Positions 29,296 through 31,892 of a DNA stretch of 33,061 nucleotides are shown here, one piece after another. The first letter of the stretch is position 1. Each line of letters starts with the position of its first letter. The position numbers and the translations under genes were made by a program. Below the pieces are notes generated by a model that saw nothing but the letters and a program-made list of their open reading frames with translations, had not been told where the DNA came from and searched no databases. This stretch comes from Caviibacter abscessus. GTDB lineage: Bacteria > Fusobacteriota > Fusobacteriia > Fusobacteriales > Leptotrichiaceae. The stretch is taken from positions 1 through 33,061 of the forward strand of contig NZ_LOQG01000002.1 of assembly GCF_001517835.1 (NCBI RefSeq). The letters are read 5' to 3'.

Positions 29296-30087
29296 TTAAA
29301 ATGCTGGTACTATTTCTTTGTTGTATTTTTTATTTATATAATTTTTAACCTTTTCAGATTGTAATGCGCTCATTAATTTTTTTATTTTTTCACTATTTTC
29401 TTGACCTTTTAATACTGCCACTATATTTGCATATGGTGAATCTTTACCTTCAACATAAATAGCTTTTTCTTTTTCAATTTTGCTAGCAAGTGCAATATTT
29501 GTATTTATAACTGCAATATCAACTTCAGAAATTCTTGGACCTATTTGTTCAGCATTTAATGTTGTTATTGATAAATTCTTTTTATTTTCTGCTATATCTT
29601 CAACATTTGAATCTAATTTTTTATTATCCTTTAATGTAATAAGACCTGCATTTTCTAATAATATAAGTGCTCTCCCACGGTTTGTAGGATCATTGGGAAT
29701 TAATACTTGTGCTCCTTGAGCTAATTCATCTATACTTTTTAATTTATCAGAATATATTTTTAACGGTTCCAAATGTATAGCTCCTGCACTTACAAGATCA
29801 ATGTTATTTTCTTTTCCAAAAGATTCCATATAAGGTACATGTTGAAAAAAATTAGCATCTAAACTTTTTTCTTTTAATGCTAAATTAGGTTGTACATAAT
29901 CATTAAATTCAACTATTTCTAAATTAATTCCTTGAGCTTTCAAATCATCTTTTACAAGTTCTACCAATTCTTTATGAGGAACCGGTGATACACCAATAAC
30001 TAATTTGTTTTCAGAATTTTTAGCACCACACGATACTAAAATAACAGTAGCAAAAAATGTTAATAAACCCTTAAAAATTTTTTTCAT
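29296..30087 (-). CDS. metQ: Methionine ABC transporter substrate-binding lipoprotein
   Basis: 263 residues. The lipoprotein signal MKKIFKGLLTFFATVILVSC is followed by the MetQ/NlpA fold: LVIGVSPVPHKELVELVKDD, IVEFNDYVQPNLALKEKSLD, ANFFQHVPYM, IPNDPTNRGRALILLENAGL and VDIAVINTNIAL. These blocks line the methionine pocket. It captures L- or D-methionine for MetNI. Last gene of metN-metI-metQ, 1 bp after metI. Confidence 0.96.
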   Translation of the reverse strand: MKKIFKGLLTFFATVILVSCGAKNSENKLVIGVSPVPHKELVELVKDDLKAQGINLEIVEFNDYVQPNLALKEKSLDANFFQHVPYMESFGKENNIDLVSAGAIHLEPLKIYSDKLKSIDELAQGAQVLIPNDPTNRGRALILLENAGLITLKDNKKLDSNVEDIAENKKNLSITTLNAEQIGPRISEVDIAVINTNIALASKIEKEKAIYVEGKDSPYANIVAVLKGQENSEKIKKLMSALQSEKVKNYINKKYNKEIVPAF

Positions 30088-30088
30088 A

Positions 30089-30730
30089 TTATTTACCTCT
30101 CTTATTTTTAATATTTTTTACGATTTTAGAACCTGAAAATTGTATAATCTGTACTAATATTATAATTATTAATGTTGATTTATACATTATCTCTTTATTT
30201 CCTCTTTGATAACCTTCAATAATTGCAAGATTTCCAAGACCTCCTCCTCCAATAACACCTGCTATTGCTGTATATGCAATAAGTGAAATTAAAGTTAAAG
30301 TAAGACCATTTATAATACTTGGCATAGCTTCAGGAATTAATATTTTAAATACAATATCTTTTGGAGTTGCACCAATAGAAATACCCATTTCAATAAGACC
30401 ATTATCTACTTCATTTAAAGAACTTTCAATTATTCTTGCTATAAAAGGAGCTGTTGCTATTGATAATGGGATTATAAATGCAGTTGTACCATATGATTTA
30501 CCTACAATTAATCTTGATAGTGGTATAAGTAAAACTATTAGAATTATAAATGGAATAGATCTGGTTAAATTAATAATTAATATGTCTATTATTTTATAAT
30601 ACACCTTATTTTCCTTAAGACCATGTTTTTTTGTTAAAACTAAAGATATTCCTATAGGTATACCTATAATGCTTGCAAAAAACATTGATACAAACATCAT
30701 ATACAATGTTTCAAATAAAGATTTAACCAT
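30089..30730 (-). CDS. metI: Methionine ABC transporter permease
   Basis: 213 residues and five membrane helices. LFETLYMMFVSMFFASIIGI, IINLTRSIPFIILIVLLIPL and the coupling EAA-type loop LNEVDNGLIEMGISIGATPK with ILIPEAMPSIINGLTL identify MetI. GGGGLGNLAI is the usual late motif. It overlaps metN by 8 bp. Confidence 0.96.
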   Translation of the reverse strand: MVKSLFETLYMMFVSMFFASIIGIPIGISLVLTKKHGLKENKVYYKIIDILIINLTRSIPFIILIVLLIPLSRLIVGKSYGTTAFIIPLSIATAPFIARIIESSLNEVDNGLIEMGISIGATPKDIVFKILIPEAMPSIINGLTLTLISLIAYTAIAGVIGGGGLGNLAIIEGYQRGNKEIMYKSTLIIIILVQIIQFSGSKIVKNIKNKRGK

Positions 30731-31682
30731 ATAAAACCTCCACTTCTATCATATTTTGTTTAAACCATGATACAATTTCATCAGTATTTTCTGCTTCAAA
30801 TTGAACTTTTAAATAACCTACTTTTTCACCTTTAGATAAAGTGTAAATATTTCCACCAAGTATATTAATATTTATTCCAAAAAGCTTAGATGCTTCTGTT
30901 ATATATGACTTATTAGCATCTGTTCCTAAAAAATGTAATATCCAAGTTTTTTGTATATCATTTTCCTCAGTTAATGAACCTATTAAACTTCTTGTAAATT
31001 CATGCTTTGGCTTTAAAAATATATCTTTTGTTTCTCCGCTTTCTATAATTTCACCATTTTTTAAAACGGCAATTTTATCACACATTTTCTTTATAACTTC
31101 CATTTGATGTGTTATTAAAATTATAGTAATGCCTAATTCCTTATTTATTTTTTTTAATAAATCCAAAATATTTGAAGCAATTATAGGGTCAAGAGATGAT
31201 GTAGACTCATCTGATAAAATTATAGATGGATTGGTAATTAACGCTCTTGCAATTGCAACTCTTTGCTTTTGACCACCACTTAATTTATTTATATAACTAT
31301 CTTTTTTATCATATAGTTCAACTAATTTTAAAACTTCCTCCACTTTTTTATAATCTACTTCCCTGGAAAGTTCTAAAGGTAATAAAACATTTTGCATAAC
31401 TGTTCTTGAAGATAATAAATTAAAGTGTTGAAATATCATTGATGTTTTTTTTCTGTAATTTATAATCTCAGCATTACTAAATTTTAATATATCTTGACCA
31501 TTTACTAAGATTTTACCACTGTCAGGAATTTCAAGTCTATTAATCATTCTAATTAAAGTAGATTTCCCTGCACCAGATAATCCAACTATACCAAAAATTT
31601 CACCTTTTTTTATGTGTAAATTGATATCTTTTAGTACTTCTTTATTTTCATATGATTTTTTTAAGTTTAATATTTCTATCAT
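30723..31682 (-). CDS. metN: Methionine ABC transporter ATPase
   Basis: 319 residues. Walker A GLSGAGKST near 34-42, signature LSGGQKQRVAIARAL near 138-152, Walker B IILSDESTSSLDP (Ser in place of the more common Ala before DE), and switch His in LITHQMEVIK. The last about 75 residues (LHFLGTDANKSYITEASKLF, then NILGGNIYTLSKGEKVGYLK) are the NIL domain that binds methionine and shuts the transporter when cytoplasmic methionine is high. AAAGGA precedes ATG. First structural gene of the operon, behind the attenuator. Confidence 0.96.
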   Translation of the reverse strand: MIEILNLKKSYENKEVLKDINLHIKKGEIFGIVGLSGAGKSTLIRMINRLEIPDSGKILVNGQDILKFSNAEIINYRKKTSMIFQHFNLLSSRTVMQNVLLPLELSREVDYKKVEEVLKLVELYDKKDSYINKLSGGQKQRVAIARALITNPSIILSDESTSSLDPIIASNILDLLKKINKELGITIILITHQMEVIKKMCDKIAVLKNGEIIESGETKDIFLKPKHEFTRSLIGSLTEENDIQKTWILHFLGTDANKSYITEASKLFGININILGGNIYTLSKGEKVGYLKVQFEAENTDEIVSWFKQNMIEVEVLYG

Positions 31683-31706
31683 AAAAAATCCTTTCTATAA
31701 ATAAAA

Positions 31707-31727
31707 ATCAGGCTATGTGTGCCTGAT
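31707..31727 (-). terminator. Attenuator terminator upstream of metN
   Basis: ATCAGGC-ACACATA-GCCTGAT followed by TTTT, 25 bp before the metN start codon. Its 5' arm and loop also contain GGCACAC, which can instead pair with GTGTGCC at 31749-31755. Confidence 0.85.
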
Positions 31728-31796
31728 TGTTTTTTATACAATTACAATGGCACACGCAAATTAGCTCGTACCATCTAGCTTTGATACAAGCTTCAT

Positions 31797-31832
31797 TTAC
31801 ATATGCATCATTAGTGTAATTGCAAATTTCAT
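31797..31832 (-). CDS. Methionine leader peptide (11 aa)
   Basis: ATG at 31832 with GAGG 7 bp upstream encodes MKFAITLMMHM and TAA. Four of the eleven residues are Met, three of them in the last four codons (ATG ATG CAT ATG), just before segment 1 of the attenuator. This is the layout of amino-acid biosynthetic leader peptides such as trpL and hisL, here for methionine. The peptide itself would have no function beyond reporting Met-tRNA supply. Confidence 0.75.
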   Translation of the reverse strand: MKFAITLMMHM

Positions 31833-31863
31833 ATTAATACCTCGTTTTTATTTCAATTAATTC

Positions 31864-31892
31864 ATTTTACAGTATAATAAAATTTTTTTCAA
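31864..31892 (-). promoter_or_regulatory. Promoter of the metNIQ leader
   Basis: Minus-strand TTGAAA (31887-31892), 17-bp spacer and TAAAAT (31864-31869), squeezed between the dinB stop and the leader peptide. Confidence 0.65.

Follow-up and report, generated by a model that had tools for sequence, protein, structure and literature searches.

The window, meaning the whole 33,061-nucleotide stretch of Caviibacter abscessus DNA analysed here, carries a metNIQ operon on its minus strand, and all elements of the leader that we describe lie on that strand too, in the interval from the end of dinB (31910) to the start of metN (31682). In the direction of transcription, the features are as follows.

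31864-31892, minus: candidate promoter TTGAAA-17-TAAAAT between dinB and the leader (consensus scan)
31840-31844, minus: Shine-Dalgarno-like CGAGG, 7 nt upstream of the leader ATG; GGAGG or GGAGA in relatives
31797-31832, minus: leader frame MKFAITLMMHM*, ATG at 31832, TAA at 31799-31797 (sequence and conservation)
31815-31824, minus: P1 5' arm TGCAATTACA (leader codons 3-6), pairing with 31737-31746 (MFE and swap test)
31800-31811, minus: codons ATG ATG CAT ATG, proposed stall site (MMxM kept in nine orthologues)
31795-31806, minus: strand A, GCATATGTAAAT (last Met codons and stop), pairing with B at 31750-31761 (P2, 12 bp; MFE)
31783-31791, minus: segment 1, GCTTGTATC, 5' arm of hairpin P3, 19-20 nt from the MMxM start in nine orthologues
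31764-31774, minus: segment 2, ATGGTACGAGC, 3' arm of P3 and alternative partner of B (pairing X, 10/11; masked folding)
31747-31761, minus: B, ATTTGCGTGTGCCAT, segment 3 with a 5' extension, partner of A, segment 2 or C (folding)
31747-31757, minus: segment 3, GCGTGTGCCAT, the core of B
31737-31746, minus: P1 3' arm in the spacer, part of which extends the antiterminator (31744-31748 with 31726-31730; folding and swap test)
31717-31723, minus: C (segment 4), GGCACAC, antiterminator partner of B and part of the terminator 5' arm (folding)
31706-31728, minus: intrinsic terminator AATCAGGC-ACACATA-GCCTGATT, then TTTATTT (terminator scan; conserved in all leaders)
30723-31682, minus: metN, ABC ATPase with NIL domain, first gene of the operon (PF00005 and PF09383; best NCBIfam model MetN, below cut-off)
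30089-30730, minus: metI, permease (PF00528; MetI subfamily model just below cut-off)
29296-30087, minus: metQ, NlpA/MetQ lipoprotein (PF03180; MetQ model below cut-off)

Methionine is the probable substrate of the transporter, an assignment made from family membership and operon make-up, with NCBIfam scores under the curated cut-offs.

The leader frame reads ATG AAA TTT GCA ATT ACA CTA ATG ATG CAT ATG TAA. A sequence-only reading of this DNA had already proposed the 11-codon frame and its Shine-Dalgarno site but gave no strand; both are found on the minus strand. Three internal Met codons fall within ten codons, for which the local Met frequency gives a probability of 0.00075 (at least three in ten). 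Since about 0.5 short Shine-Dalgarno frames with at least three Met are expected by chance per window, the evidence of the single sequence is insufficient, and it is conservation that decides. Sites matching the promoter consensus are no more numerous than in shuffled sequence, and similar boxes were recognized in relatives by eye only.

The leader RNA is strongly structured (folding z = -6.0, with none of 200 shuffles equally good). Segments 1 to 4, their pairings and the competing terminator, all named in the earlier reading, could each be located by coordinates and folding: the 1:2 pairing comprises 9 bp (11 in the MFE), 2:3 pairs at 10 of 11 positions, 3:4 has 7 bp and an inner extension ATTGT/ACAAT, and the terminator shares segment 4 with the 3:4 antiterminator. 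The largest structure had been missed. The leader frame itself pairs with segment 3 over 12 bp (GCATATGTAAAT:ATTTGCGTGTGC, P2) as well as with the spacer behind segment 3 over 10 bp (TGCAATTACA:TGTAATTGTA, P1), and P1 and P2 together make up the most stable fold, at -49.6 kcal/mol. Two terminator-like sites were observed where 0.1 would be expected, both being the same palindrome read on either strand. On the plus strand the palindrome at 31706-31728 is also followed by a T run (GTTTTTTATA), and could act in both directions.

Conservation of the leader and its pairings

We traced the leader by DNA search and MetN search through 96 genomes of the order. The same leader precedes metN in each of the nine genomes available from four Leptotrichiaceae genera, namely C. 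abscessus (g1), G081 and G082 (g7), G090 and G091 (g10) and G092-G095 (g11), and it is retained in genomes where the upstream gene differs. The nine peptides are MKFAITLMMHM, MQFTTNFMMMYMCLSL, MKKFAKNMMMDM, MINKVVTFKMNMMHM (twice), MINNVVTFEMNMMHM, MINIVVILKKKMMHMY, MNNYALTLMMMYMCR and MKYTTTFMMMHMYT. A covariance model of the region from the Met codons to B (R1), searched across the order and the phylum, matched only these nine and one divergent tenth copy outside its training set (G092 contig 322, E 4.5e-6); a further weak match, in G048, lies inside coding sequence and was dismissed as chance. The tenth copy (G092b, peptide MKNLVVVNVMMMHT*) precedes a second metNIQ operon of G092 by 66 nt. 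A gene that looks from its sequence like an M20 peptidase follows that operon (G092:C322, 201-4042).

Every one of the ten copies retains the frame and its adjacent Met codons. In the nine orthologues the motif is MMxM, in which x varies between His, Tyr and Asp and the Met codons are constant; the paralogue has MMM-His-Thr, with ACG replacing the last ATG and so turning a U-G pair into C-G. The residues that precede the Met codons vary widely, peptide length ranges from 11 to 16 residues, and the distance from start codon to Met cluster runs from 21 to 33 nt across the ten leaders, always as a multiple of 3. The distance from Met cluster to P3 is constant at 19-20 nt in the orthologues, where the two adjacent Met codons end 16-17 and 13-14 nt from P3. 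The cluster is shifted in the paralogue, its three Met codons ending 15, 12 and 9 nt away from P3 and its last codon not being Met. The stop codon falls between 5 nt before P3 and the inside of P3. Loss of the frame or of the Met codons under persisting pairings, which the sequence-only reading had named as the sign of a different mechanism, is seen in none of the ten copies.

All ten copies fold into P1, P2, P3 and the terminator, although P2, which forms in each, is only about half occupied in G095. The P1 arms are almost wholly changed between genera, yet each matches its own partner. As these arms are too divergent to align, and RNAalifold on a MAFFT alignment was uninformative, P1 was examined by a swap test among seven representatives: cognate arms pair with a mean of -13.5 kcal/mol against -5.3 kcal/mol for crossed arms, and of 5040 permutations the true one ranks first (1/5040). 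This covariation of P1 is the strongest comparative evidence that we have. The same test gave no covariation signal for P2, P3, X or B:C, which are conserved mainly as sequence; their support is thermodynamic and by conservation. Of the comparison that the earlier reading had called for, retention of the Met codons holds in ten of ten copies, and its pairings gave no covariation signal in the swap test.

Beyond these ten copies, no second leader was found in the C. abscessus genome; metE lies inside operons, and no leader of this type occurs upstream of metK. The metN upstream regions sampled from Leptotrichia and others of family f1 contain no equivalent leader, G083 excepted. A MetN-alignment scan of a wider contig set returned matches from Proteobacteria and Firmicutes only, with none from Fusobacteriota; among those 80 metN upstream regions, two have Shine-Dalgarno frames with at least three Met, neither of them leader-like by eye. 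In G083 (C1, about 260-30 nt upstream of metN) there is a different leader, MKRFREAMCMS*, missed by the covariance model. Its RNA combines a strong terminator with two helices, one resembling A:B and one, of 11 bp, resembling P1 (AAAAGATTTAG:CTAAATCTTTT). This leader is possibly a distant relative of the one described here. The genus of G083 retains one SAM-I riboswitch, and if its leader is an older relative, the leader would have arisen before the riboswitch was lost.

The nine leader genomes share a distinctive methionine setting. SAM-I is present in 82 of the 96 genomes of the order and in none of the nine (G056, G062, G063, G085 and G088 also have none), and many Fusobacteriaceae have it shortly before metN, at about 100 nt. 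A T-box search of the nine genomes gave no match. All nine have metK, and none has a MetH-type enzyme; MetE occurs only in C. abscessus, G090 and G091. Without MetE and MetH, g7 and g11 therefore look dependent on imported methionine. In the six leader genomes checked, metK stands directly behind another gene with neither SAM-I nor leader between them; other genera of the family carry SAM-I immediately before metK. The MetN proteins of G090 (L169 6286-7005) and G091 (L173 6794-7516) have only 239-240 amino acids and stop before the C-terminal region that carries the NIL domain in the MetN of the window. The C. abscessus genome comprises 1,219,211 bases, and at 1.22 Mb was reported as the smallest in the Leptotrichiaceae (PMC5093955).

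Proposed control of metNIQ

We consider it very probable that this leader controls the MetNIQ importer by ribosome-mediated transcription attenuation, with charged elongator Met-tRNA as the sensed signal. The frame, its conservation, the pairings, the covariation of P1 and the thermodynamic feasibility of the alternative states form the basis of this proposal, from which we infer that the leader would be translated, that ribosomes would stall on it in response to Met-tRNA, and that transcription would be terminated in vivo. Attenuation of metNIQ by a Met leader peptide, the central claim of the sequence-only reading, is thus supported by conservation in ten copies and by masked folding, with two amendments: the leader codons are themselves the first pairing segment and, as judged from folding, hold segment 3 such that an untranslated leader would also terminate, and the signal is more aptly described as charged elongator Met-tRNA.

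In this model three states would be possible. When the leader is untranslated, or the ribosome has gone, the leader codons would form P2 with B and P1 with the spacer, enclosing P3, and the terminator would form while B is blocked, leaving the operon off. When Met-tRNA is scarce, the ribosome would stall at ATG ATG xAY ATG, covering A and the P1 5' arm; at the adjacent Met codons it would remain at least 13 nt short of P3, so that P3 holds segment 2, B pairs with C, the terminator is prevented and the operon is on. Conversely, when Met-tRNA is plentiful, the ribosome would reach the stop codon, beside or inside P3, and disrupt this hairpin, freeing segment 2 to take B (X) and allowing the terminator to form, which would again leave the operon off.

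Simulation of these states, with masks that are simple truncations and equilibrium folding without kinetics, is broadly consistent with the model. Free RNA forms P1, P2, P3 and the terminator, with B:C absent, in ten of ten copies. Masking everything up to P3 in RNA made as far as C yields between 2.5 and 7.0 expected B:C pairs, so that the antiterminator previously proposed for a stalled ribosome is dominant in eight copies, whereas G081 and G094 give a mixture. With segment 1 masked too, the earlier claim that a ribosome at the stop codon leads to the 2:3 pairing stands for seven of the ten copies (C. abscessus, G081, G094, G095, G092, G091 and G090), where X is the main pairing of B, but not for G082 and G092b, where B:C beats X, and only by about half for G093, where the two share B.

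Several features of the locus might have been explained in other ways. The strong structure of the leader RNA, the high sequence conservation of P3 and B, and a location equal to that of SAM-I in Fusobacteriaceae relatives could all be reconciled with a metabolite-binding riboswitch for methionine or SAM, in which P1, P2 and P3 form the aptamer and the short frame is incidental. We regard this as quite improbable, given that all ten copies retain the frame, Shine-Dalgarno site and Met codons and change in length by multiples of three, that the P1 arms change sequence completely, and that mutually exclusive pairings explain the conserved bases; moreover, Rfam gives no match of any family at gathering level in the window and none to a riboswitch at E<=10 in the leader, and the SAM-I model (RF00162) has no match in the leader or the C. 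abscessus genome. Still less probable is a ligand-dependent arrest of the nascent peptide, as in the TnaC or Erm leaders, with the MMxM peptide stalling as it senses a small molecule. Although a conserved MMxM and a fixed distance from stall to P3 would suit any stall, the residues upstream of the Met codons and x itself vary widely, the peptides have only 11-16 residues, and stalling at high methionine would turn the importer on when it is unneeded.

That the terminator simply belongs to dinB, beside an unrelated short frame and with no regulation, is highly improbable: dinB does precede the leader on this strand, and its transcripts would end at the terminator too, but the leader is kept although the upstream gene differs in other genomes, and neither the competing pairings nor a covarying P1 has a role in a plain terminator. 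Least probable of all is a T-box that reads tRNA-Met directly. tRNA-Met ends in ACCA, several copies have UGGU or GGUAC, and the P3 3' arm resembles the UGGNACC motif in some of them; this idea, raised by the GGUAC motif, was rejected because UGG is not conserved (GGGU in G094, G095 and G092) and is paired in P3, and because the RF00230 model hits neither the leader at E<=10 nor any of the nine genomes.

The Met leader attenuator carries a difficulty of its own. Methionine scarcity should also deplete initiator fMet-tRNA, reduce translation of the leader and push the system toward termination. This conflict is intrinsic to any Met leader, and raises the question of how a leader can report methionine shortage if its own initiation needs methionine. 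Most likely, the switch makes the methionine importer only upon methionine shortage at the ribosome, in place of the SAM riboswitch of relatives.

Relation to known systems

Accounts of methionine regulation in bacteria mostly centre on SAM riboswitches, T-boxes or MetJ. In the clade described here, which has no SAM-I or T-box matches, a predicted switch with strong comparative support would read tRNA charging through translation. SAM-I (RF00162) occupies the equivalent position upstream of metN in many Fusobacteriaceae, but it senses SAM directly, without translation, and is absent from all nine leader genomes. We see an even chance that a reduced-genome branch of the Leptotrichiaceae lost SAM-I control and placed its importer under a three-state Met leader attenuator whose codons double as the arm of a covarying helix.

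The kind of system is known, and the leader has the testable defining features of a leader-peptide attenuator: a short ORF that has a ribosome binding site and many codons for the amino acid under control; an intrinsic terminator between this ORF and the first gene; a regulated gene from the MetN/MetI/MetQ families, which handle the same amino acid; and, on thermodynamic grounds, an antiterminator that is exclusive with the terminator and can be released by ribosome occupancy. The earlier suggestion that a Met leader peptide might be undescribed has to be narrowed, as there are earlier predictions of such peptides for Campylobacter jejuni and Streptomyces lividans; it stands for Fusobacteriota, for which the open-access literature searched yielded no description of leader-peptide attenuation. 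A 2010 survey stated that leader-peptide systems were previously known only in Proteobacteria and Actinobacteria, and reported one in Firmicutes (PMC2965389). Our results would place leader-peptide attenuation in Fusobacteriota, with a conserved RNA to which no family in Rfam 15 corresponds at gathering or permissive thresholds.

C. jejuni MetL is a peptide of 20 amino acids with three Met codons upstream of metBA, for which attenuation was proposed and initiation detected by ribosome profiling (PMC3847290), and whose reported occurrence is limited to C. jejuni, C. coli and C. doylei; CJsORF19, MMYQMR, lies upstream of the Met-transport gene Cj0772c (PMC11955535). Both are Met-codon leader peptides before Met genes with attenuation proposed, a resemblance of kind only; they belong to another phylum, and no alternative pairings are known to be described for them. 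S. lividans metL is a predicted Met leader peptide before the same transporter operon. It has 29 amino acids with two internal Met, on a leaderless transcript and with no typical terminator (PMC8079986), whereas the leaders described here have 11-16 residues, a Shine-Dalgarno-like site and a terminator.

The metN leader shares most of its logic with the his and trp attenuators of enterobacteria. In these, codons for the regulated amino acid are clustered in a short translated leader that is coupled to mutually exclusive hairpins, the position of the ribosome picks terminator or antiterminator, and an untranslated leader terminates. The clustered codons, the exclusive hairpins, the three-state logic and the (here predicted) termination of an untranslated leader all recur in the metN leader. 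It differs from them in that methionine takes the place of histidine or tryptophan, in that it would control an importer and not a biosynthetic operon, in that translation starts with the very amino acid that is sensed, and in its extra covarying helix, P1, which links the first codons of the leader to the spacer that precedes the terminator.
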